This document shows positions 13,406-60,499 of a DNA stretch of 64,000 bases, one piece after another. Made by a program: the position numbers and the translations under genes. The notes below the pieces were generated by a model. That model worked only from the letters and a program-made list of their open reading frames with translations. It had not been told where the DNA came from and ran no database searches. Source of the stretch: Kineosporia sp. NBRC 101731 (lineage in GTDB: Bacteria > Actinomycetota > Actinomycetes > Actinomycetales > Kineosporiaceae); the NCBI RefSeq assembly GCF_030269305.1, contig NZ_BSTC01000013.1, positions 62,001 to 126,000 on the forward strand, given 5' to 3'. Position 1 is the stretch's first letter. Each line of letters opens with the position of its first letter.

Positions 13406-13654
13406 ATGACCGCGATCCCCCTGGACGAGAAGCAGCAGATCAAGGACATCGTCTGCCGGATCCTCGAGGTCGAGGACGACGAGGTGACCGACACCAGCCT
13501 GTTCATCGACGATCACGACGCCGACTCGATGCGGCTGATCGAGATCCTCTCGGCGCTCGAGGTGAACCTCAAGGTCAGCATCCCGCAGAACGAGGTTCCG
13601 CGGCTGGTCAACCTCGCCGGGGTCTACGACGTCGTGGCGGAGTCGGGCCGGTGA
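13406..13654 (+). CDS. Acyl carrier protein (accessory)
   Basis: An 82-aa carrier protein. The 4'-phosphopantetheine site is Ser41 in DADSMRLIEIL, within the usual four-helix pattern (DIVCRILEV, then LEVNLKVSIP as the recognition region). It differs clearly from the core polyketide ACP at 32349 (GYESLALLET). Its stop overlaps the start of the KS-like gene at 13651 (GTGA), so the two are translationally coupled and probably act together. With the KS and FabG at 23690-25677 it may form a second fatty-acid-like assembly set. The acyl cargo is unknown. Confidence 0.88.
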   Translation: MTAIPLDEKQQIKDIVCRILEVEDDEVTDTSLFIDDHDADSMRLIEILSALEVNLKVSIPQNEVPRLVNLAGVYDVVAESGR

Positions 13655-14745
13655 GCACCAGTACCCCGACGGAGCACCCACGGGTGAGTATCGTCGGCTG
13701 GTCGGCCGTCTCGCCGTTCGGTACGGGCCGGGCCAGCTTCGCCGACGGGGTCGGTCAGGCGCGGGCCACCAGCGCGGTGATCGACCGGGACCACTGGCAG
13801 GTGCCGGACGGCCGGGCCTGCCTGGTGCCGGACTTCGACGTGCGGGCGGTGCTGGGCAAGAAGGGCACCCGCACCATGAACCGGATGACCGGCCTGGCCG
13901 TGACCACGTCGGGCAACCTGCTGAAAGAACTGGGCGAGCCCTTGGGGGCGCAGGACACGTTCGGCCTGGTGCTCGGCACCACGCTCGGAAGTGCCCAGAG
14001 CGCCATCGATCTCACCCGCAGCGGGCTCACCGGCGACAAGCCGTTCCACATCGAGTCCGGGGCGATTCCCTATGCCGTGATGAACGGCGCCGCCGGTCAG
14101 TGCGCCATCTGGCACGGGCTCAAGGGGCCGAACGCGACCGTGGCGGCGGGCCGGTCTTCGGGTCTGCTGGCGCTGAACTACGCCCGTCGGCTGTTGCTCA
14201 CCGAACGAGCCGCGTCGGTGCTCTGCGGCGCGGCCGAGGAGTACTCCGCCGCCCGCTCGTGGATCTCCCATCACAGCCGTGACACCGGAACCGATGAGCA
14301 GGTGCTGGGTGAGGGGTGTGCGATGTTCGCCCTCACCACGCAGCCCGCCGTCGAGCCGCTGGCCGAACTGCTGACGATCCGCACCGAGATCCACTCCGGC
14401 CCCGACTGGTCCCGCTCTGTCCGGCGATGTGTCGAGAAGGCCCTGGCAACGGCCCATCTCGATGCCTCACAGGTCTGGGTGGTGAGCCCGTCGGGTGGTG
14501 ACACCCCGGCCGCCGCGGACGAGATCCGGGTGCTGCGGGAACTCTTCGGTGAGGACTCGGTGCTCGACCCGGTCACCGATCTGGTCGGGGAGACGCACGC
14601 GGTCTCGGCCTCGTTCCAGCTGGCCGGCGTGCTGAGTCTGGCCGGGCAGGACCCCGCGGCCGCCGGGCGGATCGCCCTGGTCTCCTCGGTCGACCCGGTC
14701 GGGAGCGTGGCGGTGGCCGTGTTGCGACTGGGAGCGGCGGCCTGA
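13651..14745 (+). CDS. Ketosynthase homologue lacking the active-site Cys (CLF-like)
   Basis: A 364-aa thiolase-fold protein of the KAS I/II type, slightly short of the usual 400-420. The nucleophile position reads VAAGRSSGLL, so Arg168 replaces Cys. The first catalytic His motif (AHGTGT in active enzymes) reads PSGGDT. Only the second, GETHAVSAS, keeps a His. It cannot be a conventional condensing enzyme. By analogy with chain-length factors, which carry Gln at the Cys site, it may be the silent partner of an active KS, most likely the one at 23690. It follows and overlaps an ACP gene. A separate non-condensing role cannot be excluded. Confidence 0.8.
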   Translation: MSTSTPTEHPRVSIVGWSAVSPFGTGRASFADGVGQARATSAVIDRDHWQVPDGRACLVPDFDVRAVLGKKGTRTMNRMTGLAVTTSGNLLKELGEPLGAQDTFGLVLGTTLGSAQSAIDLTRSGLTGDKPFHIESGAIPYAVMNGAAGQCAIWHGLKGPNATVAAGRSSGLLALNYARRLLLTERAASVLCGAAEEYSAARSWISHHSRDTGTDEQVLGEGCAMFALTTQPAVEPLAELLTIRTEIHSGPDWSRSVRRCVEKALATAHLDASQVWVVSPSGGDTPAAADEIRVLRELFGEDSVLDPVTDLVGETHAVSASFQLAGVLSLAGQDPAAAGRIALVSSVDPVGSVAVAVLRLGAAA

Positions 14746-14746
14746 G

Positions 14747-15955
14747 ATGACCCAGCTGACGGCGGCCCGGACGGGGCTGCGTCTTCGGCCCCGCACCCTG
14801 CTGCTGGTACTCGCGGGGAACATGCTCGTGGACGCCCTCGAGGTGTCGGCGATGATCGTCGTGATGCCTTCCCTGGGAAGAGATCTGGACCTCTCGCCGA
14901 GCAGCCTGCAGTGGATGATGTCCGGGTTCGCCCTCGGCTTCGGGGGCCTGCTGCTGGTCGGGCCGCGGGTGGTCGGGCGTTTCGGCCGGCGGCGGGTGTA
15001 TCTGGCCGCGCTGGTGGTCTTCGCCCTGGCCTCGCTGGTGGCGGCCCTCGCCTCGGGCCCGGCCGTGCTGACCCTCACACGCCTGGTCAAGGGCGTGTGC
15101 GCGGCGCTGACCGCTCCCACCGGGCTGGCGATCATCGGTTCGTCCTACCCGCAGGGGCCCGAACGCGACCGGGCGGTCTCCGTCTACACGTTCTGCGGGG
15201 CCTGCGGATTTCTCGTCGGTCTGGTCTCCACCGGCCTGCTCACCGAGGTCAGCTGGCGTCTGGCGCTGGCCTTCCCGGCCCCCGTGGTGCTGGTGCTGGC
15301 GGAGCTCGGCCGCCGGGTGATCCCCCGGGACGGCGACATATGGAGGACGCCCACCTCGCCCCGGCCGGGTCGCCGAAGGTTCCCGGACCCTCGCCTGGTG
15401 CGGGCCGCGCTGGGCGCGGCCGTGCTGAACGGCTCGTACCTGGGGCTGCTCTTCCTCCTGACGTTCCAGCTGCAGAACGGTCTGCGCTGGGGGCCCGGGC
15501 ACACCGCGCTGGCCCTGCTGCCGGCCGGGGCGCCCCTGGCGCTCTCGGCGCTGACCTCCGGGCGGATGGTGCGCCGGTTCGGTCCGCCGCGGCTCATCGC
15601 CCTGGGGGCGGCGGTACTGCCGTTCGCTTCTCTGCTGTACCTGCGACCCGTTCTGCCGCACTCGTACGCGACCGACGTGCTCCCCACCCTGCTCCTGCTG
15701 GCCGTGTCCTTCGTCCTCGCTTTCGCCGCCCTGAACGTCCAGGCCACCCGGGGCCTTCCGGCCGGATCGAGCTCGATCTACCAGGCCACCGTGCAGGCCG
15801 GGGCGGTGGTCTCGGTGATCGTCGCCGGCGTGCTGGTCACCGCGGACGAGACCCGGACCCTGGTCGCGCTGATCGCGGCGGCCGGTGGGGTGGGACTGAT
15901 CGTCGCCCTGATCGGCCTGCGCCCGAACCCGGGCCGCAACCAGATCCCGAGCTGA
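14747..15955 (+). CDS. MFS transporter, probable product exporter
   Basis: A 402-aa, highly hydrophobic major-facilitator protein with roughly a dozen membrane segments. The loop 2-3 signature is GRFGRRRVYLAALV, and helix 5 carries a glycine-rich antiporter-like motif. The short cytoplasmic loop RDGDIWRTPTSPRPGRRRF is arginine-rich. It begins one base after the KS-like stop. Its position among sugar and KS genes suggests export of the cluster's product or an intermediate, and hence self-resistance. Substrate is inferred from context only. Confidence 0.87.
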   Translation: MTQLTAARTGLRLRPRTLLLVLAGNMLVDALEVSAMIVVMPSLGRDLDLSPSSLQWMMSGFALGFGGLLLVGPRVVGRFGRRRVYLAALVVFALASLVAALASGPAVLTLTRLVKGVCAALTAPTGLAIIGSSYPQGPERDRAVSVYTFCGACGFLVGLVSTGLLTEVSWRLALAFPAPVVLVLAELGRRVIPRDGDIWRTPTSPRPGRRRFPDPRLVRAALGAAVLNGSYLGLLFLLTFQLQNGLRWGPGHTALALLPAGAPLALSALTSGRMVRRFGPPRLIALGAAVLPFASLLYLRPVLPHSYATDVLPTLLLLAVSFVLAFAALNVQATRGLPAGSSSIYQATVQAGAVVSVIVAGVLVTADETRTLVALIAAAGGVGLIVALIGLRPNPGRNQIPS

Positions 15956-15971
15956 GGAAGGAAGACCCTCC

Positions 15972-17138
15972 ATGCGCATCCTCTTCGTCGCCGGAGGCGG
16001 TCTCGCCACCGCCTACGCCCTGGCGCCGCTGGCCACCGCGGCCCGCAACGCCGGCCACCAGGTGGTGATGGCCGCCAACGACGACGTCGTGCCGGCGATC
16101 ACCGGTTCCGGGCTGCCCGCGGTCTCCGTGAGCTCGGCCCCGATCACCCGGTTCATCTACGCCGACCGCTTCGGCGACCCGGTCGACATCCCCACCGACC
16201 CGGCCGGTCAGGTGGCCTTCACCGGGGAATGGTTCGCCCGGATGTCGGCCGAATGGCTCGGCCCGCTGGAGCGGATGGCCCGGGTCTGGAAACCGGACGT
16301 GGTGGTCGGCGGCACGATGTCGTACGCGGCCGGTTTGCTGGCCCGGCGTCTGGGGGTGCCCTACGTGCGGCACGCCTGGGACGCCATCGACGCCTCGGGC
16401 GTGGACGAGGGCGCGGTGCGTGAGCTGTTGCCCGAGCTGGCCGAGCTGGGGCTGGACACCCTGCCGGTGCCGGAGGTCTTCATCGACGTCTGCCCACCCG
16501 CCCTGGCCCCCGACCAGACCCTGCCCGCCGGGAGACGGGTACCGATGCGCTGGGTGCCCACGAACGGTCAGCGGGCCCTGGAACCGTGGATGTACACCCG
16601 TGAGGACCGGCCCCGGGTCTGCCTGACCACCGGCAGCCGGGTCCGCGCCGACGCCCCGCAGGGCGACTTCCGGCGCCACGGCTACGAACTGCTGCTGGCC
16701 GTGGCCGAGGTGACCCGCACGCTCGACGTCGACCTGCTGGTGGCGGCGCCGGACGAGTCGGCGCTGGCGATCGGAGCCGCGTTGCCCGGGGTGCAGGCCG
16801 GCTGGATCCCGCTGGACGTCATGGTGGGCAGCTGCGACCTGCTGATCCACCACGGCGGCGGCACCACCGCCCTGACCGGCCTGAGCGCGGGCGTGCCCCA
16901 GGTGATCATCCCGCAGGGCGCGGTGCCGGGCCTGGGCGCCGAGCGCATCGCCCGTCACGGTGCCGCCGTGTGCCTGACCGCATCGGAGGCGGCCGACGAC
17001 CCGGGGGCGGTCGCCGATGCCTGCCAGGAGGTGCTCAAGCAGCCCTCCTACACCGAGCGGGCCCGCGAGGCGGCCGCGCAGATCGCCGCGATGAGCACGC
17101 CGTCCGCGGTGGTCTCCGTGCTCGAGAAGCTGAGCTGA
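15972..17138 (+). CDS. Glycosyltransferase, GT1 family (natural-product type)
   Basis: A 388-aa GT-B enzyme of the macrolide/angucycline glycosyltransferase group. The start MRILFVAGGGLATAYALAPL is the acceptor-domain strand/loop. The nucleotide-sugar signature is IHHGGGTTALTG near residue 292, followed by GVPQVIIPQG. It should move the dTDP-deoxyhexose made by the neighbouring genes to the aglycone. It is the only glycosyltransferase in the cluster, so a single sugar, or one iteratively added, is expected. O- versus C-transfer cannot be read from the sequence. RBS AGGAAGG at 15956-15962. Confidence 0.92.
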   Translation: MRILFVAGGGLATAYALAPLATAARNAGHQVVMAANDDVVPAITGSGLPAVSVSSAPITRFIYADRFGDPVDIPTDPAGQVAFTGEWFARMSAEWLGPLERMARVWKPDVVVGGTMSYAAGLLARRLGVPYVRHAWDAIDASGVDEGAVRELLPELAELGLDTLPVPEVFIDVCPPALAPDQTLPAGRRVPMRWVPTNGQRALEPWMYTREDRPRVCLTTGSRVRADAPQGDFRRHGYELLLAVAEVTRTLDVDLLVAAPDESALAIGAALPGVQAGWIPLDVMVGSCDLLIHHGGGTTALTGLSAGVPQVIIPQGAVPGLGAERIARHGAAVCLTASEAADDPGAVADACQEVLKQPSYTERAREAAAQIAAMSTPSAVVSVLEKLS

Positions 17139-17186
17139 GCGGCGTCCTCCATCTTTTTGTGAACCGAACACTCGGGAAGGTGAACC

Positions 17187-17780
17187 ATGTCGCAGGAGCC
17201 GATCCAGCTCGCCGTCATCATCGGGAGCGTGCGCGCAGGGCGTTTCGGCCCGGCCGTGACGCAGTGGTTCGCCGGGCAGACCCGCGATCACAGCGCCGTC
17301 ACGGTCGATGTGATCGACCTGGAGCAGTACCCGCTGCCGTTGCGGATGCCCGACTTCGGCGAGGAGCCGCCGGTCGAGGTCGCCCCGGTGAAGAACGCGC
17401 TGGGCGAAAGACTGCAACGGGCAGACGCTTACGTGGTGGTCACGCCGGAGTACAACCACGCCCCGCCGGCCGCGCTGAAGAACGCGATCGACTGGTACCG
17501 CTCGGAGTGGGCGGCCAAGCCGGTGGGCCTGATCTCGTACGGCGGGCTGAGCGGTGGTCTGCGGGCCGCGGAGCACCTGCGGCAGATCTTCGCCGAGCTG
17601 CACGCCATGACGGTGCGTGACGCGGTGAGTTTCCATCACGCCTGGAACGACTTCACCCATGAGGGTGAGCCGTCCAGCCCGGAGGGCAGCGAGGCCGCGG
17701 CCAAGGTGCTGCTCGATCAGCTGGTCTGGTGGGGCGTCGCGCTGCGCGACGCCCGCCGCGCCCGGCCGTACAACGTCTGA
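17187..17780 (+). CDS. NADPH-dependent FMN reductase/quinone reductase
   Basis: A 197-aa flavodoxin-fold protein. It has the FMN phosphate loop IIGSVRAGRFGPAV near residue 11, the PEYNHAPPAALKNAIDW segment and the flavin-stacking YGGLSGG. The family reduces FMN, azo dyes or quinones with NAD(P)H. In angucycline pathways such enzymes can supply reduced flavin or reduce the quinone intermediate, for example before an oxygenase step. It lies between the glycosyltransferase and the sugar reductases, 48 bp after the former, with RBS GGAAGGTG. Confidence 0.9.
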   Translation: MSQEPIQLAVIIGSVRAGRFGPAVTQWFAGQTRDHSAVTVDVIDLEQYPLPLRMPDFGEEPPVEVAPVKNALGERLQRADAYVVVTPEYNHAPPAALKNAIDWYRSEWAAKPVGLISYGGLSGGLRAAEHLRQIFAELHAMTVRDAVSFHHAWNDFTHEGEPSSPEGSEAAAKVLLDQLVWWGVALRDARRARPYNV

Positions 17781-17785
17781 GTCCC

Positions 17786-18538
17786 GTGGACGTCATCGGA
17801 ACCGGATTCCTGGCCCGGCATCTCGCAACCCTCGAGAACCGGCACCGGGACGTGATCGCGCTGGCGGCCGGGGTCTCCTGGGCCAGCGGCACGTCTGCCG
17901 CGGACTTCGCCCGGGAAGAGGCACTGGTGCGCCGCACGGCCGAACGCTGCCGCAACACCGGCCGCACCCTGTTGTTCTTCTCGACCGCGTCCGCCGGGGT
18001 CTACGGATCGGAGAAACCCGGTCTGGAGAGCGATCCACCGCACGCGCGAAGCCCTTACGGGGCGCACAAGCTCGGGCTGGAAGAGGTCGTGCGCTGTTCG
18101 GGCGCCGATCATCTGGTACTGCGGCTGGGGCATCTGGTCGGCCCGGGGCAGCCGGAGCACCAGTTGCTGCCCACCCTGACGCGCCGGTTGCGCTCCGGGT
18201 CGGTCACCGTGCAGCGCCACGCCACCCGCGACCTGGTCGACGTGACCGACGTGGTCGGCGTCATCGACGCGCTGCTGTCGGCGGGGGCGCGCCAACAGAT
18301 CGTGAATGTCGCCTCCGGGTATGCGGTTCCGGTCGGACTGGTGATCGATCACCTGGAGCTGCGGCTCGGCACCCAGGCCCGGCGCGAGTTCCAGGACGCG
18401 GGCGCCTCGCACCGGGTGGGTATTGGCAAACTGCGCACGCTCGTGGCGGCGGACCGGTTGCCGGCCTTCGGGCCGGACTACTTCCGCCGGGTGCTCGATG
18501 ATTTCGTGGCGGCCGAGACCACCCGGACGCCGACGTGA
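17786..18538 (+). CDS. NDP-hexose 4-ketoreductase
   Basis: A 250-aa extended SDR (epimerase/dehydratase fold). The GTG at 17786 gives the shortened Rossmann start VDVIGTGFLARHL. Catalysis is represented by FFSTASAGVYG and YGAHK (Tyr-x-x-x-Lys), and later RDLVDVTDVV. Related proteins reduce the 4-keto group as the last step of dTDP-deoxysugar formation. It overlaps the 3-ketoreductase gene by four bases. With the 2,3-dehydratase and 3-ketoreductase it should give a 2,6-dideoxyhexose. The C-4 stereochemistry (olivose versus oliose) depends on this enzyme and is not predictable here. Confidence 0.8.
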   Translation: MDVIGTGFLARHLATLENRHRDVIALAAGVSWASGTSAADFAREEALVRRTAERCRNTGRTLLFFSTASAGVYGSEKPGLESDPPHARSPYGAHKLGLEEVVRCSGADHLVLRLGHLVGPGQPEHQLLPTLTRRLRSGSVTVQRHATRDLVDVTDVVGVIDALLSAGARQQIVNVASGYAVPVGLVIDHLELRLGTQARREFQDAGASHRVGIGKLRTLVAADRLPAFGPDYFRRVLDDFVAAETTRTPT

Positions 18539-19506
18539 CGCCCCTGCGGATCGGGGTGCTGGGGGCGGCGGGGATCGCCCGCCGCCGCATGCTGCCCGCG
18601 ATGGAGGCCGATCCGGGGATCCGGGTGGTCGCGATCGCCAGCCGGAGAGCCTCGAGGGCCGAGGGCCTCGCGTCCCGCTACGGGGCCCGGGCCTTCGGGG
18701 ACTACGAGATGCTGCTGGCCGACGCGGAGGTGGAGGCGGTCTACGTGCCGCTCCCGCTGGCCCTGCACGCCCCGTGGGTGGAGGCGGCACTGCGGGCCGG
18801 AAAGCATGTGCTGGCCGAGAAACCGATCGCCATGGACGCCGCGACCAGCCGCCGGCTGATCGCCCTGGCGGCCGGTCGCGGGCTGGTGCTGATGGAGAAC
18901 GTCTTGTTCGTTCATCACTCCCAGCACGGGGCGGTGCGCCGCCTGGCCGCCGAGATCGGCGAGCTGCGCTCATTTCAGGCTTCTTTCGCCATTCCCCGGC
19001 TGCCGGCCGACGACATTCGCTACGACCCCGACCTGGGTGGGGGCGCGTTGTGGGACGTCGGGGTCTATCCGGTGCGCGCGGCGATCCACTTCCTCGGTCC
19101 GGAGCTGAGGGTGGTGGGTGCCGCCCGCCGGAGCGATCACCGGGTCGATCTGGGTGGGGCAGCTCTGCTGCGTCGCCCCGACGGGGTGAGCGCGCAGCTG
19201 GTCTTCGGCCTGGACGACGCCTATCAGAACAGCTATGAGCTGCGGGGGAGTACGGGCCGGATCACGGTCGACCGGGCGTTCACACCCCCGGCCGGCCATC
19301 TGCCGGAGGTGACCCTGGAGCGGCACGGCACCCGCGAGCGCGTCACCCTGCCCGCCGATGACCAGACGGGCCGATTGCTGAAGACGTTCGTCACGGCGGT
19401 GCGCTCGGGTGCGGCGGAGAGCGCCGACAGCCTGCGGCAGATCGAACTGCTCGACGAGATCCGGAATTTCTCGCACCACTCGCACCCGGAGGTGCCGGTC
19501 GGATGA
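18535..19506 (+). CDS. NDP-hexose 3-ketoreductase (Gfo/Idh/MocA family)
   Basis: A 323-aa oxidoreductase with the N-terminal Rossmann motif RIGVLGAAGIARRRM and the conserved AEKPIAMDAATS (Glu-Lys-Pro, catalytic Lys). The C-terminal sheet contains LWDVGVYPVRAAI. This is the UrdT/LanT-like family that reduces the 3-keto group left by the 2,3-dehydratase. It overlaps its neighbours on both sides by four bases, so 17786-20450 is tightly coupled. Assignment rests on family plus the presence of the partner dehydratase at 26635. Confidence 0.87.
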   Translation: MTPLRIGVLGAAGIARRRMLPAMEADPGIRVVAIASRRASRAEGLASRYGARAFGDYEMLLADAEVEAVYVPLPLALHAPWVEAALRAGKHVLAEKPIAMDAATSRRLIALAAGRGLVLMENVLFVHHSQHGAVRRLAAEIGELRSFQASFAIPRLPADDIRYDPDLGGGALWDVGVYPVRAAIHFLGPELRVVGAARRSDHRVDLGGAALLRRPDGVSAQLVFGLDDAYQNSYELRGSTGRITVDRAFTPPAGHLPEVTLERHGTRERVTLPADDQTGRLLKTFVTAVRSGAAESADSLRQIELLDEIRNFSHHSHPEVPVG

Positions 19507-20450
19507 TCACACTTGAATCCGTCGAGTTCCACGTGCCGGAGCGCGTGGTCACGGTGGCGGACCGCGCGCAGGAGCTCGGGCTGAGCGCCGAGCAGATCCA
19601 CATGTTCGGGCGGGTGCACGGCCTGGACCGGATGCACTACGACCCGGACGTGTCTCTGCTCGACCTGATGGTGCCCGCCGCGAGAGCCGCGCTGGGCGAC
19701 ACCGATCCGCGGTCGATCCGCTATGTGATCTACGGGCACGCGATGCACGGCACCGCGGACGCCCGGGCCGGTATCGCCGGTCAGGTCCGGCAGGTACTGG
19801 GACTGAACGGCGCGCAGGTGATCTCGCTGACCCAGCAGAACTGTGCGATCTCGCTGAGCGCGATCGACGTGGCGGGCACGCTGTTGCGGGCCGGTGGTGA
19901 CCCTCTCGCCCGGGCGCTGGTGGTGACCGGTGACAAGCCGGTCTCGCCCGACGCGAAACTGGTGATGAACTCGTGCATCGTCGCCGACGGGGCCGCCGCC
20001 TGCCTGGTCGCCTGGAACGGGACCGGTGTGCCGGTGACCTCGTTCGCGACCCGGACGACCGGCGAGCACTACCGCGGGATGCTCACCAATGCGGCGGGTT
20101 TCCGGGCCGCCGCGGCCGCGAGGCCGGGAGCGATGGCCGCCGCGATCGAGGGCGCCCTGGCCGGGGCGGGCTGCACCATGGACGACATCCAGGTGATCAT
20201 CCCGCCGAACCCGAACGTCGTGTACTGGAACGACACGATCACCAGTGATGCGGTGCGGGAGAAGTTCTTCTTCGACAACATCCCCCGCTACAGCCACGCC
20301 CTGGCCGCGGACGTGTTCATCAACTACGTGACCCTGCGCGACGACAAGCGCCTGGAGCCCGGTCGGCCGCTGATGTTCGTCGCCATCGGGGTCGGGATGA
20401 CCTTCTCCGCCATGGTTCTCGTGCCCGGAGCAGAACAGGGGAAGATCTGA
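19503..20450 (+). CDS. KASIII-like protein with Cys but no HxxN His
   Basis: A 315-aa FabH/KASIII-fold protein. The nucleophile Cys114 is in QQNCAISLSA. The position of the PHQAN loop reads IPPNPNVVYWND, so the catalytic His is replaced. KASIII-like proteins in aromatic polyketide clusters either choose the starter unit (DpsC type) or act as acyltransferases (CerJ type). The missing His argues against decarboxylative condensation and for acyl transfer or a specialised reaction. It overlaps the 3-ketoreductase gene and is fused end-to-end (ATGA-style overlap) with the half-size protein at 20450, suggesting a functional pair. Confidence 0.82.
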   Translation: MITLESVEFHVPERVVTVADRAQELGLSAEQIHMFGRVHGLDRMHYDPDVSLLDLMVPAARAALGDTDPRSIRYVIYGHAMHGTADARAGIAGQVRQVLGLNGAQVISLTQQNCAISLSAIDVAGTLLRAGGDPLARALVVTGDKPVSPDAKLVMNSCIVADGAAACLVAWNGTGVPVTSFATRTTGEHYRGMLTNAAGFRAAAAARPGAMAAAIEGALAGAGCTMDDIQVIIPPNPNVVYWNDTITSDAVREKFFFDNIPRYSHALAADVFINYVTLRDDKRLEPGRPLMFVAIGVGMTFSAMVLVPGAEQGKI

Positions 20451-21106
20451 TGCGGCTGCACGCCACGGCGAGCATCGAGAGTTCGGGGGAGGCCGGGCAC
20501 GTCGAGCTGATCGACCGGCTGCTCCAGGAGAGGAGCGAGGGCCCGGGTGATCCGCTGAGCCCGGACCTGGTGATGCTGGCCTACCCCGATCACGACCCGA
20601 GCGGATACCTCACCGCTGCCTCGTACCTGAACATGCGCACGGGTGGACGCGCGCACAGTTTCGCGGTCTCCGGTGAGGGGGCGGCGGGGGCCACCACGGC
20701 CGTGGGCATCGCCCAGGCGTACGGCGAGGCCGGGCGCAGCACGTCGTCGCTGCTGGTGCTGGCCCAGGTCCCGGGGCCCGGGCAGCCGGTGGGCAGCGCG
20801 GTGATGCTGCACTTCGACGGCGGCCCGGGATCGGGAACCGTCGAGATCGACGAGCAGGGCGGCGAACTGACGACGCGCCTGGCGGCGCTGTCTCCCGGGG
20901 GCCCGGTGCTGGTGGTCACCGGGGAAGAGCCGTCCGGCCGGCCGGACGGCGTCACGGTGCACCGCCCGGCCGGGTCACCGGGCTACGGCGGGGAGTGGCT
21001 CGACCTGGCCCGGCACTGGTCGCGGTGGCAGCACGAGTACGCGGTGGTCGTGGTGCACCCGGCCGCCGACACCGGGCGGATCGTCGTCCTGCGCAATCGA
21101 CCGTGA
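20450..21106 (+). CDS. Half-size thiolase-fold-like protein, partner of KASIII-like gene
   Basis: A 218-aa protein not matching a well-known enzyme. The pattern DLVMLAYPDHDPSGYLTAAS, then HSFAVSGEGAAGATTAV, resembles the N-terminal half of a ketosynthase, where a Cys-containing turn (xxCAGG) would fall. Here Ser/Gly replace it. Later VGSAVMLHFDGG recalls the strand following the active site. It would lack the His/Asn-bearing C-terminal half. It starts within the stop region of the KASIII-like gene, so a heteromeric complex is a fair inference. Alternatively it is an unrelated binding protein. Function unknown. Confidence 0.6.
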   Translation: MRLHATASIESSGEAGHVELIDRLLQERSEGPGDPLSPDLVMLAYPDHDPSGYLTAASYLNMRTGGRAHSFAVSGEGAAGATTAVGIAQAYGEAGRSTSSLLVLAQVPGPGQPVGSAVMLHFDGGPGSGTVEIDEQGGELTTRLAALSPGGPVLVVTGEEPSGRPDGVTVHRPAGSPGYGGEWLDLARHWSRWQHEYAVVVVHPAADTGRIVVLRNRP

Positions 21107-21116
21107 GGTGAATCGT

Positions 21117-21920
21117 TCAGGACGGGGCGCTCTCGGGCAGCCAGGCCTGGATGGCGTCCATGACCCGTTCCAGGCCCTCGTGGAACCGGGCGTCGGGTTC
21201 CAGGTGGGCCGTGACGGTCTCGTGCAGCATGCGGGAGAACCGCGGGTACCGGCCCGAGGCGACGAGCTCCCGGGCGTAGGGGGCGGAGCGGCGCATCCAC
21301 TCACGCATGTCGACGTGCGTGTGCAGGGCCTCCTGATCCCAGCCCACCTCGTCCCGGGCGAACCCCTCGACGTAGCTGCTGAGCAGGGTGTACAGGCCGG
21401 TCAGCTCGTCGACGGGCAGGTCGTGGCCGTCGAACACCGAGAGCGTGAACTCCAGCTGCCGCAACGTGTTCGGACCCCAGATCGGATGCCCGGGCATGCG
21501 CGTGGCCAGCCAGGGGTGCTTCAGCCACAGGGCGCGCCGCTGCACCGCGATCTCGGTCAGGGCCTCGCGCCAGCCGCCGAAGCTCTTCCCGTCGAAGTCC
21601 ATCTCGCCGGCCACCTCGTCGATCATCAGCTCGACGAGGTCTTCGCGGTGGGGCACGTACCGGTACAGCGTCATCGCTCCCGCGCCGATGTCCGCGGCGA
21701 TCCGTCGCATCGATGCCGCCTCCAGCCCCTCGGCGTCGGCGATCCGAATGGCGGCGGCCGTGATCTGCGACCGGCTGAACGACCGGTTCGGCCCCGGCGA
21801 GCTCCGTCGCGACGCCCGCACCGGCCGCTCGGGCCGGGCCCAGATACTCACCGGCTCGACAACCTCGACGGCCTCGCCCGTCTGGCCCACGTCTACGGGC
21901 TCGCCGACCTCGTCCTTCAT
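21117..21920 (-). CDS. TetR-family regulator with C-terminal TetR_C-like domain
   Basis: A 267-aa regulator. The start at 21920 is preferred to GTG 21947 because GGAAAGGG lies 7 bp upstream. An acidic, low-complexity leader of about 60 residues precedes the helix-turn-helix (SRSQITAAAIRIADAEG, then IGAGAMTLYRYVPHREDL). The ligand domain is of the TetR/tetracycline-repressor C-terminal type. It is divergent from the DHA2 pump at 22043 with repeats in between, the classic arrangement for drug-responsive control of an exporter. The likely ligand is the cluster's own product. Confidence 0.88.
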   Translation of the reverse strand: MKDEVGEPVDVGQTGEAVEVVEPVSIWARPERPVRASRRSSPGPNRSFSRSQITAAAIRIADAEGLEAASMRRIAADIGAGAMTLYRYVPHREDLVELMIDEVAGEMDFDGKSFGGWREALTEIAVQRRALWLKHPWLATRMPGHPIWGPNTLRQLEFTLSVFDGHDLPVDELTGLYTLLSSYVEGFARDEVGWDQEALHTHVDMREWMRRSAPYARELVASGRYPRFSRMLHETVTAHLEPDARFHEGLERVMDAIQAWLPESAPS

Positions 21921-21922
21921 GA

Positions 21923-23476
<1,554 letters not shown>

Positions 23477-23491
23477 CCCGTACGACCACCC

Positions 23492-23525
23492 GAAGGCGCC
23501 GTTCCCGTTGCGGGACGGCGCCTTC
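23492..23525. terminator. Rho-independent-like terminator after the DHA2 pump
   Basis: Stem GAAGGCGCCGT/ACGGCGCCTTC, 11 perfect base pairs with a 12-base loop, starting 15 bp after the pump stop codon and followed by TTTG. It separates the pump transcript from the large biosynthetic operon. Confidence 0.8.
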
Positions 23526-23546
23526 GTCGTTTGCTCTAAGCCGGCG

Positions 23547-23575
23547 TGAGTGAAGACCTAGCGAAAACCTAGAGG
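23547..23575 (+). promoter_or_regulatory. Candidate SARP site at head of main biosynthetic operon
   Basis: GACCTAG (23555-23561) and AACCTAG (23566-23572) are heptamers separated by CGAA. A weaker third unit precedes at 23544, separated by TGAA. The 11-bp period is the signature of SARP operators. It lies 118 bp upstream of the first gene (23690) of a same-strand run continuing to 39837, so it could control the polyketide core. No clear -10 element was identified. Confidence 0.5.
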
Positions 23576-23689
23576 GTGCAACCCTTGAGGCGCCGCCTGG
23601 CGGTACGGAAGATGGTGATGTCCAGGGCGCCGGACTCGTCGGCCCCGCAAGGGCTCCCGGCCATCAGCCTCCGACAGGGGAACATGCCA

Positions 23690-24949
23690 ATGAACAGCGC
23701 CACGGAATCCGGAATCTCGCGAGCAGACCGTCGCCATCCGTCCCGCCGCGTCGTCATCACCGGCATGGGCGTCTTCTCGAGCATCGGGATCGGCACCGAG
23801 GAGTTCGCGCAGGGCCTGCGCACCGGCCGCAACGGCGTCTCGCCGATCAGTGCCTTCGACCCGGCCGGCTTCGAATGGTCGAACGGCTGCGAGGTGCGCA
23901 ATTTCGAGCCGGAGAAGTGGATCGAGCGGCTCGACCCGGACGAGCTGGGCCGGGCCGAGCAGTTCTCCGTCGCCGCCTCCCGGATGGCGGTGCAGGACGC
24001 GATGCTCACCGAGGACGACCTGCGCGAGAAGACGGTGCACATCTCGATCGGCACCACCGACGGGGAGTCCCGCGACCTGGACGAGCTGGCCGCCGACTGG
24101 GTCACCGGCGGCCCGGAATCGATGAACCCGGCCCTCACCCGCCGGGTCGCGGCCGGCCTGCTCTCCCACGCCGTCGCCCGCGAGCTGGATCTCGTCGACG
24201 TCGAGGCGATCACCCTGGCCACCGCCTGCTCGGCCGGGAACTACGCCATCGGCAACGGTTTCGACGCGATCCGGATCGGCGACGCGGACATCGCCCTGTG
24301 CGGCGGCGCCGACGCCATGTGCCGCAAGTCGTTCACGTCCTTCTACCGGCTGGGCACCATCGCCCCCGACTTCTGCCGCCCGTTCGACCGTGACCGGCAG
24401 GGCATCCTCACCGGCGAGGGCGCCGGCGTGCTGGTGCTGGAGAGCCTGGAGTCGGCCTGGGCCCGCGGCGCCCGCATCCACGCCGAGGTGCTCGGCTACG
24501 GCCTCAGCTGCGACGCCCACCACCCCGTGCAGCCGGAGCAGTCGAGCATCGCCCGCTGCATGCGCACCGCCCTCGACGACGCCGGCGTGCGACCCGACGA
24601 GGTCGACCTGATCTCCGCCCACGGCACCGGCACCAAGACCAACGACGTCACCGAGGTCCGCGCCATCCGCGACGTCTACGACGGCGACCCGCCCCGCACC
24701 ATCTCGCTGAAGTCGATGCTCGGCCACACCATGGGCGCCGCGAGCGCCCTCGGCGCGATCGCTTGCTCCCTGGCCATCACACACGGCTTCATCCCGCCGA
24801 CCATCAATCACCGGGTCACCGACCCCGAGTGCGAGATCGACTGCGTCCCCAACGAATCCGTGGAGGCTGAGCTGAACGTGGTGCAGAACAACGGCCTGGC
24901 GTTCGCCGGGAACAACGCCGTCGTGGTGCTGGGCAAGGTGGCGGCATGA
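23690..24949 (+). CDS. Active ketosynthase, KAS II-like (accessory set)
   Basis: A 419-aa condensing enzyme with a full catalytic triad: Cys180 (TACSAGNYA), His311 (SAHGTGTKTND) and His346 (LGHTMGAAS). ATG 23690 is favoured over 23684 because AGGGG lies 9 bp from it rather than 3. An extra N-terminal tail (MNSATESGISRADRR) precedes RRVVITGMG. It differs plainly from the cluster's KSalpha at 29856. It overlaps a FabG-like gene directly downstream and has no adjacent CLF. The Cys-less KS at 13651 is the only candidate partner. Together with the spare ACP these could build a short beta-hydroxyacyl or starter chain. Confidence 0.9.
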   Translation: MNSATESGISRADRRHPSRRVVITGMGVFSSIGIGTEEFAQGLRTGRNGVSPISAFDPAGFEWSNGCEVRNFEPEKWIERLDPDELGRAEQFSVAASRMAVQDAMLTEDDLREKTVHISIGTTDGESRDLDELAADWVTGGPESMNPALTRRVAAGLLSHAVARELDLVDVEAITLATACSAGNYAIGNGFDAIRIGDADIALCGGADAMCRKSFTSFYRLGTIAPDFCRPFDRDRQGILTGEGAGVLVLESLESAWARGARIHAEVLGYGLSCDAHHPVQPEQSSIARCMRTALDDAGVRPDEVDLISAHGTGTKTNDVTEVRAIRDVYDGDPPRTISLKSMLGHTMGAASALGAIACSLAITHGFIPPTINHRVTDPECEIDCVPNESVEAELNVVQNNGLAFAGNNAVVVLGKVAA

Positions 24950-25677
24950 CCCGCCCGATCGCCCTGGTCAGCGGCGGAAACCGCGGCATCGGGCGGGCCA
25001 CCGTGCTGCGCCTGGTCAGCGACGGCTACGACGTGGCCTTCTGCTACCGGCGCGACGCCGACTCGGCGCGCTCGCTGGAGAAGGAGGTGGCCGAGGCCGG
25101 GGCACAGGCGATCGGCCGGCAGGTCGACGTCACCGACCCGGCCGCGGTGAACGAGTGGGTCGCGGCCGTGGAGAAGGAGATCGGGCCGATCCAGGTGGCC
25201 GTCACCAGCGCCGGGATCATCAAAGACGCCCCAACGATCCTGATGAAGGACGAGGACTGGCACTCGGTCATCGACATCAACCTCAGTGGCACCTTCAATG
25301 TCTGCCGGGCGGCGGCGTTCCCGATGGTGCGGCGCCGTTCGGGCAGCATCGTCAACATCTCCTCGGTCGTCGGCATCCACGGCAACGTGGCGCAGAGCAA
25401 CTACGCCGCCTCGAAGGCCGGCATCTTCGGCTTCACCAAGGCCCTCTCCAAGGAGGTCGGCCGGTTCGGTGTGCGGGTCAATGCGATCGCGCCGGGCTTC
25501 ATCCAGACCGACATGGTGTCGGGCCTGACCGAGGCCCGGAAGAACTCCGCGCTGGAACGTCTTTCGCTGCAGCGCTTCGGTGTCGCCGAAGACGTGGCCC
25601 ACGCGGTCGGCTATCTCGTCGAGGCGGGGTACGTGACCGGCTCGGTGCTGGTCGTGGACGGTGGCCTGTCGCTATGA
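24946..25677 (+). CDS. FabG-type 3-oxoacyl-ACP reductase (accessory set)
   Basis: A 243-aa classical SDR. It shows SGGNRGIGRATVLRL (NADP-binding TGxxxGxG variant), the NNAG-equivalent TSAGIIKD, Ser in NISSVVG, Tyr-Lys in YAASKAG, and the fatty-acid-type ending ITGSVLVVDGG variant (VTGSVLVVDGGLSL). This is closer to FabG than to the C-9 ketoreductase at 32617. It overlaps the KS stop by four bases and rmlB begins inside its own stop, so it is translationally coupled to both. Likely role: reducing the beta-keto group made by the neighbouring KS on the accessory ACP. Confidence 0.9.
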   Translation: MTRPIALVSGGNRGIGRATVLRLVSDGYDVAFCYRRDADSARSLEKEVAEAGAQAIGRQVDVTDPAAVNEWVAAVEKEIGPIQVAVTSAGIIKDAPTILMKDEDWHSVIDINLSGTFNVCRAAAFPMVRRRSGSIVNISSVVGIHGNVAQSNYAASKAGIFGFTKALSKEVGRFGVRVNAIAPGFIQTDMVSGLTEARKNSALERLSLQRFGVAEDVAHAVGYLVEAGYVTGSVLVVDGGLSL

Positions 25678-26651
25678 GGATCCTGGTCACCGGCGGCGCC
25701 GGGTTCATCGGGTCGCGGTACGTGCGCGGGCTGCTCGCCGACGAGTACGCCGGGTACGAGGGTGCGCACGTGACCGTACTGGACAAGCTCACCTACGCGG
25801 GCAATCGTTCCAGTCTGCCGCCGGACGGCCCGCGGCTGACCTTCGCCGAGGGTGACATCCGCGACCGGGAGCTGCTGGACCGGCTGCTGCCCGGGCAGGA
25901 CGCCGTGGTGCACTTCGCGGCCGAGTCGCACGTGGACCGGTCGCTGCGCAACCCCTCGGAGTTCGCCCTCACCAACGTGGTCGGCACCCAGAGCCTGCTG
26001 GACGCCTGCCTGGCCCACGACGTCCACCCGGTGGTCCACGTCTCGACCGACGAGGTCTACGGCTCGATCGACTCCGGCACCTGGGACGAGAACGAGCCGC
26101 TGCTGCCGAACTCACCCTACGCGGCGTCGAAGGCCGGCAGTGACCTGATGGCCCGGGCCTACTGGCGCACCCACGGCCTGGACGTGCGGATCACCCGCTG
26201 CTCCAACAACTACGGCCCGTATCAGCATCCGGAGAAGCTGATCCCGCACTTCATCACGCAGCTGCTGTCGGACGGCACGGTGCCGCTGTACGGCGACGGA
26301 GGCAACCGCCGCGAGTGGATCCATGTCGACGACCACTGCCGGGCGGTGCATCTGGTACTCACCGGCGGGGTGGCGGGCGGTGTCTACAACGTGGGCGGCG
26401 GCACCGAGCTGTCGAACCGGGAGATGACCGAACGGCTGCTGGCCCTGTGCGACGCGGACTGGGACCGGGTGCGGAACGTGCCGGACCGCAAGGGGCACGA
26501 CCTGCGCTACGCGCTCGACGATTCGAAGATCCGCGATGAGCTGGGGTTCGAGCCGGCGGTGCCGTTCGGGCCGGGCCTGGCCGCGGTGGTGCAGTGGTAC
26601 CGCGACAACCCCCTCTGGTGGAAGGGGCACGACGATGATCGGGAACCCTGA
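25674..26651 (+). CDS. rmlB: dTDP-glucose 4,6-dehydratase
   Basis: A 325-aa extended SDR. It begins MRILVTGGAGFIGSRYVRG (GxxGxxG) and has the dehydratase signature STDEVYGSID, the catalytic YAASKAGSD (Tyr-x-x-x-Lys) and NNYGPYQHPEKLIP. It forms dTDP-4-keto-6-deoxyglucose, the common precursor of the cluster's deoxysugar. Its start overlaps the FabG stop and its end overlaps the 2,3-dehydratase start by 17 bp. Typical length; nothing missing. Confidence 0.96.
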   Translation: MRILVTGGAGFIGSRYVRGLLADEYAGYEGAHVTVLDKLTYAGNRSSLPPDGPRLTFAEGDIRDRELLDRLLPGQDAVVHFAAESHVDRSLRNPSEFALTNVVGTQSLLDACLAHDVHPVVHVSTDEVYGSIDSGTWDENEPLLPNSPYAASKAGSDLMARAYWRTHGLDVRITRCSNNYGPYQHPEKLIPHFITQLLSDGTVPLYGDGGNRREWIHVDDHCRAVHLVLTGGVAGGVYNVGGGTELSNREMTERLLALCDADWDRVRNVPDRKGHDLRYALDDSKIRDELGFEPAVPFGPGLAAVVQWYRDNPLWWKGHDDDREP

Positions 26652-28005
26652 TCAAATGGGTCGTTTCACCACCTCCGCGGAAATGGTGGACGACGGGGTC
26701 ACCAGCGGTGACGAGTTCGTCCTCTGGCTCAAACAGCAGCGCGAGGAGCACCCGCACGAGGTGACCCGGATTCCGTTCGCCGACCTGGACGGCTGGGATT
26801 TCGACGGGCGCACCGGGAACCTGGCCCACCGCAGCGGCCGGTTCTTCACGATCGAGGGCGTGCGGGTGCAGACCGATCACGCGACCTGGGAGCAGCCGAT
26901 CATCGATCAGCCCGAGATCGGGATCCTCGGCATCCTGGTCAAGGAGTTCGGCGGGGTGCTGCACTGCCTGATCCAGGCCAAGGCCGAGCCGGGCAACCCG
27001 GACGGGTTGCAGCTGTGCCCGACGGTGCAGGCCACGCGCAGCAACTACACCGGGGCGCACGGCGGCCGGGCGGTGCCCTACCTGGAGTACTTCCGCGGCG
27101 AGGGCGGCGCCCGGACGCTCGTCGACTCGCTCCAGTCGGAGCAGACCTCGTGGTTCCTGGGTAAACGCAACCGCAACGTGGTCGTCGAGGTGAGCACCGA
27201 CGTCCCCTTGCTGGAGGGCTTCTGCTGGCTGACCATCGGTCAGCTGCACCAGCTGCTGCTCACCGACAACCGGGTGAACATGGACACGCGAACGGTGCTG
27301 TCCTGCATCCCCTTCGGGGTGCCCGGCGGCCCGGCCCGGGGCGACGCGCCACCGGAGTACCGCGAGGGCCTGCTGCGGTCGATGGCACCGGCCGCCCCGT
27401 CGCTGCACACCGACGGGGAGGTGCTCGGCTGGCTGACGGAGATCCGCGCCCGGCGCGAGTTCCGGCGCCGGGTGGTGCCTCTGGCCGACATCGGGCACTG
27501 GCACCGGTCGGACGACGAGATCGCCCACGACGAGGGCACGTTCTTCCGGGTGATCGCCGTCGACGTGCGGGCCGGCAACCGGGAGGTGACGCGGTGGACC
27601 CAGCCGTTGCTGGCGCCGGTGGGTCCCGGGCGGGTGACCCTGCTGGTGCGCCGCATCGGCGGGGTGCTGCACCTGCTGCTGCAGGCCCGCTCCAGTGCCG
27701 GGGTGTTCGATCTCGCCGAACTCGCGCCGACCGTTCAGTACCGGCCCGGGAACTACGCCGAGGATCCACCGTTCGCCGGTTTCTGCGGTGGGCAGACGCG
27801 GTACGACACCGTGCAGTCCGAGGAGGGCGGCCGGTTCCATCACGCGCTGAACCGTTACCAGATCATCGAGATCGACGACGAGGTCGAGGCTCCTGAGGGA
27901 TTTCGCTGGCTGACCGTGCACCAGGTCACGCGTCTGCTCGAGCACGGCAACTACGTCAACGTCGAGATGCGCAGCCTGCTGGCCGGTCTGCACGTCACGT
28001 GGTGA
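26635..28005 (+). CDS. NDP-hexose 2,3-dehydratase
   Basis: A 456-aa protein made of two related halves of about 200 residues. The repeated pattern includes FFTIEGVRVQTDHATWEQPI in the first and FFRVIAVDV with REVTRWTQPLL in the second, then GGVLHCLIQAK versus GGVLHLLLQAR. The duplicated EVS/UrdS-like fold is specific to 2,3-dehydratases, which remove the C-2 hydroxyl of the 4-keto sugar. ATG 26635 is preceded by AAGGGG and overlaps rmlB. Its product needs the 3-ketoreductase at 18535. Presence of this gene defines the sugar as 2-deoxy. Confidence 0.95.
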   Translation: MIGNPDQMGRFTTSAEMVDDGVTSGDEFVLWLKQQREEHPHEVTRIPFADLDGWDFDGRTGNLAHRSGRFFTIEGVRVQTDHATWEQPIIDQPEIGILGILVKEFGGVLHCLIQAKAEPGNPDGLQLCPTVQATRSNYTGAHGGRAVPYLEYFRGEGGARTLVDSLQSEQTSWFLGKRNRNVVVEVSTDVPLLEGFCWLTIGQLHQLLLTDNRVNMDTRTVLSCIPFGVPGGPARGDAPPEYREGLLRSMAPAAPSLHTDGEVLGWLTEIRARREFRRRVVPLADIGHWHRSDDEIAHDEGTFFRVIAVDVRAGNREVTRWTQPLLAPVGPGRVTLLVRRIGGVLHLLLQARSSAGVFDLAELAPTVQYRPGNYAEDPPFAGFCGGQTRYDTVQSEEGGRFHHALNRYQIIEIDDEVEAPEGFRWLTVHQVTRLLEHGNYVNVEMRSLLAGLHVTW

Positions 28006-29532: not shown

Positions 29533-29859
29533 ATGCACAGCACCCTGATCGTGGCCCGGATGCTCCCGCAGTCCGGTGACGACGTGGCCCAGCTCTTCGC
29601 CGACTTCGACGGCACCGACCTGCCGCACCGGATGGGCACCGTCCGCCGGCAGCTGTTCTCCTACCGCGGCCTGTACTTCCACCTCCAGGACTTCGCCACG
29701 CCGACCGGTGGCGAGGCGATCGAGGAGGCCAAGACCGACCCGGCGTTCGTGCGGATCAGCGACGACCTCAAGCCGTTCATCGAGGCCTACGACCCCAGCA
29801 CCTGGCGGTCGCCGAAAGACGCCATGGCAAGCCGCTTCTACCACTGGAGCCAGTCGTGA
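29533..29859 (+). CDS. Polyketide cyclase, TcmI/UrdF type
   Basis: A 108-aa ferredoxin-fold (dimeric alpha/beta barrel) cyclase. The sequence starts [12 protein letters not shown] and includes [20 protein letters not shown] and the C-terminal AMASRFYHW, all typical of TcmI-family fourth-ring cyclases. In angucycline pathways this protein (JadI, UrdF, LanL) directs the bent ring closure, so it is the main sign that the product is an angucycline and not an anthracycline. Its TGA overlaps the GTG of KSalpha. RBS GAGGAG upstream. Confidence 0.92.
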
Positions 29860-32323: not shown

Positions 32324-32348
32324 CCTCTTCTCCGTGAAAGGGAAAAAC

Positions 32349-32615
32349 ATGTCTGACAAGGCTTTCCATCTGAACGACCTGCGCCGCATCCTGCGCGCCG
32401 GGGCCGGTACGCCCGAGGGCGTGGACCTCGACTCCGACATCCTCGACACCGAGTTCGAGGTGCTGGGTTACGAGTCGCTGGCCCTGCTGGAGACCTGCGG
32501 CCGGATCGAGCGGGAGTACGGCATCAGTCTCGACGACGACCTGGTCGTCGACGCGACCACCCCCCGGGCCGTGATCGACCTGGTGAACGAGCAGCTGTCC
32601 GTGGGGAGCGTCTGA
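32349..32615 (+). CDS. Polyketide acyl carrier protein
   Basis: An 88-aa ACP. ATG 32349 is chosen for the AAAGGG upstream at 32338-32343. The upstream GTG would add an unlikely leader. The phosphopantetheine attachment site is Ser43 in GYESLALLE. It carries the growing polyketide for the adjacent KSalpha/CLF. Gene order KS-CLF-ACP is canonical. No phosphopantetheinyl transferase gene is present in the window, so one from elsewhere must activate it. Confidence 0.96.
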   Translation: MSDKAFHLNDLRRILRAGAGTPEGVDLDSDILDTEFEVLGYESLALLETCGRIEREYGISLDDDLVVDATTPRAVIDLVNEQLSVGSV

Positions 32616-32616
32616 C

Positions 32617-33399: not shown

Positions 33400-33428
33400 G
33401 GGCTCGCTCACTTCCGATGGGAGAGAAC

Positions 33429-36103: not shown

Positions 36104-36298
36104 AGACCGTCCGGCTCCGGGTCTGTCAGAGCGTGTTGTGAACCATGCCTACTGCGGGCACCGGGCACTTCCTCGGCACGGCAGCGACTTCCACAACACG
36201 CACTGGCCGGCCCGGTCCCGAGCCCGTGAACCTTCGCGTCCACCCACTGGACGCACCAGGAACCGTCAGTCAGAACGTCCACAACAATGGAGGATTCG

Positions 36299-42831: not shown

Positions 42832-42833
42832 GC

Positions 42834-45481: not shown

Positions 45482-45510
45482 ATCACGAGGGCGATCGGGT
45501 GCGAGGTGAA

Positions 45511-45541
45511 CGACGTCGGGCTCCCCGGGAGCCCGACGTCG
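45511..45541. terminator. Strong terminator hairpin after biotin carboxylase gene
   Basis: A perfect inverted repeat of 15-bp arms around a single base (CGACGTCGGGCTCCC/GGGAGCCCGACGTCG), 29 bp after the stop codon and followed by CCTTCA. It ends the SARP-rmlA-carboxylase transcript and marks the likely cluster boundary. Confidence 0.85.
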
Positions 45542-60497: not shown

Positions 60498-60499
60498 GG

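Follow-up and report, generated by a model that had tools for sequence, protein, structure and literature searches.

An apparently trimmed relative of the simocyclinone gene cluster in Kineosporia sp. NBRC 101731, with a polyene-type ketosynthase pair and a KSIII-like protein beside a predicted site-less partner

We analyzed a 64,000-nucleotide stretch of the genome of Kineosporia sp. NBRC 101731 (positions 62,001 to 126,000 of contig NZ_BSTC01000013.1; the window), focusing on six genes embedded in an aromatic polyketide cluster: a second acyl carrier protein (ACP1), a ketosynthase (KS) devoid of the catalytic Cys (KSx), a ketosynthase III-like protein (KSIII), a small protein encoded directly after it (the partner), an active ketosynthase (KS3) and a FabG-type ketoreductase (FabG). 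Our results suggest that the window probably carries a simocyclinone-like angucycline cluster, in which a polyene chain would be built on ACP1 and moved by KSIII and its partner to a sugar. It appears to be a reduced relative of the simocyclinone cluster, not an unknown system. The original prediction, made from this DNA alone, named the six genes and their active-site features, and open reading frames (ORFs) with these features are present at all six positions. It also considered the set to be undescribed and knew of no angucycline cluster with exactly this combination. Both claims are refuted: the set recurs beside angucycline-type KS and chain-length-factor (CLF) genes in several genera, and the role of the KS pair in tetraene formation has been published (PMC5812520, PMC5321127).

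KS3 (23690-24949, with a GTG start at 23576 also possible; genes are on the forward strand unless noted) retains Cys180, His311 and His346 in the alignment, as expected of the fully active enzyme originally proposed, and among solved structures it is closest to chain A of PDB entry 6kxd (E 2.6e-169). In KSx (13651-14745), Pfam recognizes the N-terminal ketoacyl-synthase domain only. When KSx was used to scan the contigs of 84,980 species genomes, ten loci were obtained (L025-L034; L-numbers denote loci found by genome scans). Arg168 occupies the Cys position of KSx in the window, and Arg is found there in all ten loci as well (11 of 11 aligned proteins). The best solved relative of KSx is chain B of 6kxd (E 2.1e-79), and here Arg faces Arg. 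These two chains would correspond to Iga11 and its CLF; entry 6KXF represents the ishigamide ACP docked to its KS-CLF from a highly reducing type II polyketide synthase (PKS) (PMC7949117). As judged from these alignments, KS3 and KSx are the active KS and the Cys-less CLF subunit of the highly reducing (polyene) subfamily of type II PKSs. An assignment of KS3 to the cispentacin type (AmcF) was dropped, the AmcF model, with its cut-off at 325, scoring KS3 at 205.9 bits.

A highly reducing type II PKS is expected to have its own ACP and its own ketoreductase, and both are present. ACP1 (13406-13654), rightly predicted as a spare carrier, matches PP-binding (E 9.8e-9), has Ser41 within a DADS motif and is found at 48-74% identity in all ten loci. 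FabG (24946-25677) is recognized by both Pfam and NCBIfam, reaching 282.7 bits with 3oxo_ACP_reduc (cut-off 297.75) and 240.6 bits with PRK12826.1-2 (cut-off 222), and is 59-63% identical to its counterparts in L029-L033. ACP1 and FabG are thereby shown to be a carrier and a ketoreductase of the kind that matches the KS pair. The KS3 and KSx genes are not adjacent but separated by sugar and export genes. In summary, the window shares with the ishigamide PKS (6kxd-6kxf) the KS, the Cys-less CLF with Arg at the Cys position, the own ACP and the own ketoreductase, but differs in that the set lies inside an aromatic cluster and is accompanied by the KSIII pair, while no dehydratase gene was found on the contig. 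A KS3/KSx-like pair (49 and 34% identity) with a FabG-like gene also occurs in a different cluster of another genome of the same genus (G121; L022:7970-17845).

The search for the six-gene combination in other genomes, which the original prediction had proposed, was carried out by comparing window proteins with the stretches L025-L034 using tblastn. Besides KSx itself, found in all ten loci, KS3 is present in nine (there is none in the 18.8 kb that make up L025), KSIII with the partner in eight (neither was found in the L033 and L034 stretches) and FabG in six (L029-L034). All six genes co-occur in four loci, namely L030, L031, L032 and L029. The hosts belong to Nocardia, Streptomyces, Kitasatospora, Amycolatopsis, Streptacidiphilus, Actinomadura and Janthinobacterium. 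KSIII is 51-62% identical in the eight loci, and the KS3 counterparts in L026 and L027 share 81-82% identity with the window's KS3. A counterpart of the window's aromatic KS was found at 78-86% identity in seven of the nine actinobacterial genomes searched (86% for L028, 82% for each of L030, L031 and L032, 80% for L027 and 79% for L026); Amycolatopsis has one at 56% and a partial one at 81%, and Nocardia has none at the limit used. This gene lies in or adjoins the six-gene cassette in Streptomyces sp. NRRL B-24484 (L026), DSM 101779, Ru72, S. griseoluteus, S. exfoliatus and Streptacidiphilus. Close parallels to the window are S. griseoluteus NRRL ISP-5360 and S. exfoliatus NRRL B-2924 (L030, L031), where about 33 kb hold the six genes along with the aromatic core, a glycosyltransferase and sugar genes; their genomes lack RPE65, and the gene order differs. 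Four of 396 genomes of the order, the window's own included, have a KSIII match at E 1e-10, and a profile built from a KSIII alignment of seven sequences (A1) detected 49 of 396 genomes of the phylum at E 1e-20, with the window's own genome and two others at 302-430 bits and the rest at no more than 96 bits. A KSIII-only tblastn scan of the species-genome contigs returned no relative; this was a false negative, since the KSx scan later brought up eight loci with KSIII.

Streptomyces sp. NRRL B-24484 is a simocyclinone producer whose cluster is described as having no type I PKS genes, and an iterative type II PKS has been demonstrated to build the simocyclinone tetraene (PMC5812520), with stand-alone KSs forming the tetraene (PMC5321127). 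Its contig and the window agree largely in gene order, at 44-82% protein identity (with 52% for a further short match to the first oxygenase). The gene order in NRRL B-24484 is TetR, pump, ACP1, KSx, KS3, glycosyltransferase, 4-ketoreductase, 3-ketoreductase, KSIII and partner, followed by flavin adenine dinucleotide (FAD) oxygenase, cyclase, KS, CLF, ACP, ketoreductase, aromatase, FAD oxygenase, short-chain dehydrogenase/reductase (SDR) and flavin mononucleotide reductase. The window has almost this order, with the TetR/pump pair, KS3, FabG and the sugar dehydratases lying between the partner gene and those of the aromatic core. The TetR repressor gene (21117-21947, reverse strand; Pfam TetR) encodes a protein whose best solved relative is SimR (2y2z, 'SimReg2'; E 5.3e-86), and the pump of the major facilitator superfamily (22043-23476; Pfam MFS_1, 51% identical to the NRRL B-24484 pump) is divergent from it, in the same arrangement as the divergent simR and simX genes (PMC5812520). 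A gene call at 21108-22046 on the forward strand, overlapping the TetR gene, was rejected, as it has no Pfam or NCBIfam match. Thus, the clusters of NRRL B-24484 and Kitasatospora resemble the window in angucycline PKS and tailoring genes, glycosyltransferase, deoxysugar ketoreductases, the SimR/SimX-like pair, ACP1-KSx-KS3, and KSIII with its partner; the simocyclinone cluster of S. antibioticus Tu 6040 was taken into account solely from the literature.

In DSM 101779, genes for a carboxyltransferase, thioesterase, RPE65-type oxygenase, aldehyde dehydrogenase, SDR and AMP-binding ligase come next in the cluster. SimC4/SmcC4 together with an aldehyde dehydrogenase have been proposed to make the dicarboxylic tetraene (PMC11727611), and the RPE65 gene of DSM 101779 would encode the SimC4-type diacid-forming enzyme. 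RPE65 (PF03055) has no match in the genome harboring the window (other oxygenase types were not searched), and neither has the halogenase family PF04820. The latter has a single match in L026, presumably serving the aminocoumarin. RPE65 is present in seven of ten comparator genomes, beside the cassette in DSM 101779 and Ru72 (contig C66); elsewhere it may belong to other pathways. It was not found in the genomes of S. griseoluteus, S. exfoliatus and Janthinobacterium. Nine additional genes of NRRL B-24484 and DSM 101779, among them the oxygenase, the aldehyde dehydrogenase, the AMP-binding ligase and a PF02458 transferase, gave no listed match in the window when used as queries (best match per place). 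FabG adjoins KS3, unlike in the simocyclinone clusters. Since both RPE65 and PF04820 are missing from the genome, a simocyclinone-like variant is expected, with a mono-acid ester and without the chlorinated aminocoumarin, unless another type of oxygenase substitutes. As an observation based on few cases, L026, L027 and L028 have RPE65 but no FabG beside KS3, whereas the window, L030 and L031 have FabG but no RPE65; L029 and L032 have FabG together with RPE65 elsewhere in their genomes, on other contigs. Balmoralmycin, considered as a lead, has no occurrence in review PMC11766693.

KSIII (19503-20450), whose start overlaps the stop of the 3-ketoreductase gene, matches ACP_syn_III_C at 41.5 bits and ACP_syn_III at 22.1 bits, below the cut-off of 24. 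It had been described as lacking its His, and indeed Pro235 aligns with the FabH His, while His265 aligns with the FabH Asn. In the alignment of nine KSIII proteins (the window and eight orthologues) the FabH His position is Pro in six, Ser in two and Thr in one, and never His. The Cys is kept in eight of the nine, while the FabH Asn position is His and the residue five positions on is Asp in all nine. The same His and Asp coincide when KSIII is aligned with CerJ, which also has no His at the FabH position. In ChlB3 the triad is Cys113-His296-Asp301, with the His-Asp pair found in CerJ too, and CerJ moves malonyl onto a sugar hydroxyl (PMC9573744). Judging by these alignments, KSIII keeps the Cys-His-Asp triad of the CerJ/ChlB3 KSIII-like acyltransferases as Cys114-His265-Asp270. 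The structural model of KSIII, derived from 11 sequences (predicted local distance difference test (pLDDT) 83.9, predicted template modeling score (pTM) 0.88), gave entries for NatS, the daunorubicin protein DpsC and ChlB3 as the first five Foldseek matches, with PqsBC in row 18 and CerJ in row 43. The window protein therefore shares with CerJ and ChlB3 the KSIII fold and the triad, and with CerJ the missing FabH His, but it is remote in sequence and is followed by the gene for a partner without an active site.

That partner (20450-21106; 218 residues) has no Pfam or NCBIfam match and directly follows KSIII in all eight KSIII-bearing loci of the KSx scan. Its AlphaFold model (nine sequences, pLDDT 80, pTM 0.80) has 254 PDB matches at E <= 0.001, with beta-ketoacyl-ACP synthase III (KAS III) first; the best match has an E-value of 3.6e-8 and a TM score of 0.63 over the query, and the overlay is poor, with a root-mean-square deviation of 5-12 A and 10-17% identity among the best 50 of the 254 matches. 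Because the model resembles KAS III structures, the partner is better regarded as a shrunken whole KSIII fold; the earlier description of a half-size thiolase-like protein holds for the small size but not for the half thiolase. No Cys, His or Asn is invariant in the partner alignment (A3), and the protein is predicted to have no conserved catalytic residue. A role in defence was rejected, since PADLOC found no families. Such an arrangement recalls PqsBC, in which PqsB has none of the three catalytic residues, pairs with PqsC and plays a supporting role, and PqsC keeps the Cys and the FabH His without the third residue (PMC4807248). Both systems feature a catalytic FabH-like subunit beside a site-less FabH-like one. 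However, the window KSIII lacks the FabH His and keeps another His, so the reaction would differ; since the FabH His is found in none of the nine proteins, we do not file the pair as a PqsBC-type member, although the pairing may resemble it.

Based on these observations, we propose the following scheme. KS3 and KSx would lengthen the chain on ACP1, FabG would reduce each beta-ketone, and a dehydratase of fatty-acid synthesis, encoded outside the cluster, would introduce the double bonds. KSIII and the partner would form a heterodimer, which would take the finished chain from ACP1 onto Cys114 of KSIII and pass it to a hydroxyl of a D-olivose-type sugar on the angucycline, much as CerJ does with malonyl. 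The chain would stay a mono-acid ester with no chlorinated aminocoumarin, and the SimR/SimX-like pair would export the product. The polyene product, its reduction, the outside dehydration, the acyl transfer and the heterodimer are thus all our inferences from the comparisons above. An acyl decoration of the sugar had been one of the explanations offered originally, and it stands in the same sense, given the type of the KS pair, the CerJ-like triad and the position of the KSIII pair directly after the deoxysugar ketoreductases in the window, L026 and L027.

Several observations weigh against this scheme. The NRRL B-24484 contig matched the sugar ketoreductases and the glycosyltransferase of the window, but not its 4,6- and 2,3-dehydratases. 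FabG is not universal to the set, as it was not matched in L026, L027 and L028, and the one FabG match listed for the wider DSM 101779 stretches is at 31% identity. The similarity of KSIII to CerJ is remote (profile E 9.9e-15), with plain FabH entries scoring higher; likewise, plain FabH structures appear from row 6 of the fold search on the KSIII model, with similar E-values. The models of KSIII and the partner rest on 11 and nine sequences, respectively. ChlB3, which transfers acyl between ACPs, forms a dimer and has no partner of this kind (PMC9573744). In the Amycolatopsis metagenome-assembled genome (L029:12128-13759), KSIII has Tyr for the Cys and the partner gene is in two overlapping pieces, which might reflect decay or an assembly error. 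Also, the KSIII family with partner-like genes occurs without the polyene-type PKS. Finally, the cluster has no dehydratase, and where the dehydration activity would come from is a guess.

The position of the KSIII pair bears directly on another possibility, namely that KSIII and the partner act at the start of the chain by loading a starter on ACP1 or KS3, with another enzyme attaching the chain to the sugar. Two of the proteins with the nearest folds, ChlB3 and DpsC, shuttle acyl groups between carriers or prime chains (PMC9573744), and the pair does sit between KSx and KS3 in L028, L030, L031 and L032. On the other hand, it follows the sugar ketoreductases in the window, L026 and L027. In addition, the fetched stretches of L033 and L034 contain no KSIII pair despite the presence of KS3, KSx, ACP1 and FabG, which suggests that the PKS core can do without the pair. 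Apart from the FabD-like protein at 37068, no further O-acyltransferase candidate is found among the window proteins scanned, and the PF02458 transferase of NRRL B-24484 is matched in DSM 101779 only, of the 13 stretches compared. We therefore consider a starter-loading role of the pair unlikely.

The dehydration step is pertinent to a different alternative. As originally noted, there is no dehydratase among the window proteins scanned, and the scans reveal no enoyl reductase candidate beyond three SDRs (24946, 32617 and 36287), no dedicated enoyl-reductase family search of the genome having been made. The three SDRs match PF13561, named by Pfam as enoyl-ACP reductase, and the one at 24946 scores best as a 3-oxoacyl-ACP reductase. 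PF07977 and PF22818 have no match in the whole genome, while PF01575 has six, none of them on contig C13, to which the window belongs; the genome comprises 8.26 Mb in 88 contigs. Two adjacent MaoC matches at C1:1148684-1149444 of this genome (G000), one of them below the Pfam cut-off, are candidates for the outside dehydratase. The highly reducing subfamily is described as comprising KS-CLF, ketoreductase and dehydratase (PMC10698177). With PF01575, PF07977 and PF22818 unmatched on the contig, a single KS3/KSx and FabG round without dehydration might yield a short beta-hydroxyacyl group that is placed on the sugar, and AmcF-AmcG, a type II PKS-like pair, does perform a single C2 elongation (PMC10698177). 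However, DSM 101779, which the passages cited here do not name as a producer, shows a similar pattern. Within its cluster (about 5.80-5.84 Mb), the called ORFs share 77-97% identity with those of NRRL B-24484, its MaoC (PF01575) matches are at 1.92, 2.55, 4.81 and 6.84 Mb, and it has no PF22818 match. Since this cluster, very similar to that of the published tetraene maker, likewise has neither family nearby, the missing dehydratase alone is no argument for a hydroxyacyl product, contrary to the original prediction, which had based a beta-hydroxyacyl group on it. The 81-82% identity of KS3 to its L026 and L027 counterparts speaks for the tetraene type as well, and we regard the short hydroxyacyl as quite improbable.

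The weakest option, that the six genes supply the angucycline chain with a starter other than acetate, also considered originally, could appeal to aromatic clusters such as those of frenolicin and R1128, where a second KSIII and ACP go with starter units, but we find no support for it and hold it to be very improbable: to our knowledge priming KSIIIs retain the condensing His, the window KSIII has Pro at this position, and the aromatic KS (79%) and CLF (73%) are close to those of NRRL B-24484, whose stand-alone KSs are assigned to the tetraene (PMC5321127).

A broader issue is whether the KSIII pair represents a family of its own. Outside the cassette, KSIII and a partner-like gene are adjacent or in the same locus in L013, L014, L015, L020 and L037 (the same place as L098). 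A partner profile applied to nine KSIII loci put six of their ORFs at the head of 298 ORFs of 150-420 residues, of which the L016 one may be FabH-like and is ambiguous; L019, L021 and L036 gave none above noise. No link between the small protein and its distant counterparts was seen with single-sequence phmmer, and single-sequence hhalign of the small protein gave one match better than E 0.01 (L013, 3.9e-4). In KSIII alignment A1 (n=7), the positions of the Cys, His265 and Asp270 are invariant, whereas the FabH His is kept in five of seven. Its loss in the simocyclinone-type branch and in L021 would fit a shift from condensation to plain transfer. It is quite possible, though we would not call it probable, that KSIII and the 218-residue partner belong to a two-subunit FabH-like O-acyltransferase family, composed of a chain with the CerJ-type triad and an obligatory degenerate KSIII chain, serving in the window to carry a polyene from ACP to sugar and reused in unrelated clusters (L098, L020, L013 with a nonribosomal peptide synthetase (NRPS), and, accompanied by AMP-binding enzymes and acyl-CoA dehydrogenases, L014 and L015). 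Given that KSIII and partner-like genes exist without a polyene PKS, the pair need not act on polyenes or sugars.

These wider loci offer some observations of their own. L014 and L015, on plasmids of Rahnella aceris and Tritonibacter mobilis, and L013, on a plasmid of Streptomyces decoyicus, carry two or three genes of the KSIII-like kind together with genes for partner-like proteins, ACPs and acyl-CoA dehydrogenases, along with AMP-binding enzymes in the first two and the NRPS in L013. In L019:9144-12414, L098:8300-13684 and L021:9358-11246, KSIII relatives lie near a protein of about 290 residues that looks alike by eye in all three and may be diiron-oxygenase-like. A nearby gene in L019 and L098 is methyltransferase-like by eye, perhaps pointing to another recurrent module with a KSIII relative.

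As to what the window may offer, the assembly and dehydration of the simocyclinone tetraene were called unclear in 2015 (PMC4451461), and the enzyme attaching it to the sugar is not stated in the available parts of the simocyclinone literature cited here. The window and the S. griseoluteus and S. exfoliatus clusters look like naturally occurring core forms, with an acyl group on a sugar on an angucycline and without the diacid and chlorinated-aminocoumarin steps. They provide simple settings for the polyene synthase, for the KSIII pair and for possible new angucycline polyene esters, so that an apparent new system becomes a testable one.

The remaining genes of the cluster, taken to span about 12653 to 45481, complete an angucycline-type core with deoxysugar genes and a glycosyltransferase, identified by Pfam and by matches to NRRL B-24484. 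The aromatic core (29856-34391) consists of KS alpha (29856-31124; 79-86% to KS genes in the genomes of six loci), CLF (31121-32323; 73% in NRRL B-24484), ACP (32316-32615; 68%), ketoreductase and aromatase, with a cyclase at 29533 and two FAD oxygenases elsewhere in the cluster. The sugar, which would be of the D-olivose type, is accounted for by a putative glucose-1-phosphate nucleotidyltransferase (probably 42669-43736; NTP_transferase), a deoxythymidine diphosphate-glucose 4,6-dehydratase (probably 25674-26651; GDP_Man_Dehyd/Epimerase, 67% in the S. griseoluteus locus), a nucleoside diphosphate-hexose 2,3-dehydratase (probably 26635-28005, the ORF opening at 26536; Hexose_dehydrat, E 1.7e-144), a putative deoxysugar 3-ketoreductase of the Gfo/Idh type (18535-19506; GFO_IDH_MocA, 60% to NRRL B-24484), a putative 4-ketoreductase (probably 17786-18538, the ORF opening at 17729; Epimerase, 60%) and a single glycosyltransferase (15972-17138; EryCIII-like, 63%). 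An SDR at 36287-37063, 81% identical to its positional counterpart in NRRL B-24484, is a candidate SimC7-type ketoreductase. It is followed by a FabD-like acyltransferase, presumably of the malonyl-CoA:ACP type (37068-38009; Acyl_transf_1), and an acyl-CoA carboxylase biotin subunit (43577-45481; Pfam, 64-75% in the S. griseoluteus and S. exfoliatus loci) may contribute to malonyl supply. Adjoining the cluster at 45506-49888 is a gene for a 1460-residue nSTAND1 NTPase with WD40 repeats, and at 58001-62000 the G+C content falls to 0.58-0.63, suggesting a possible insertion.

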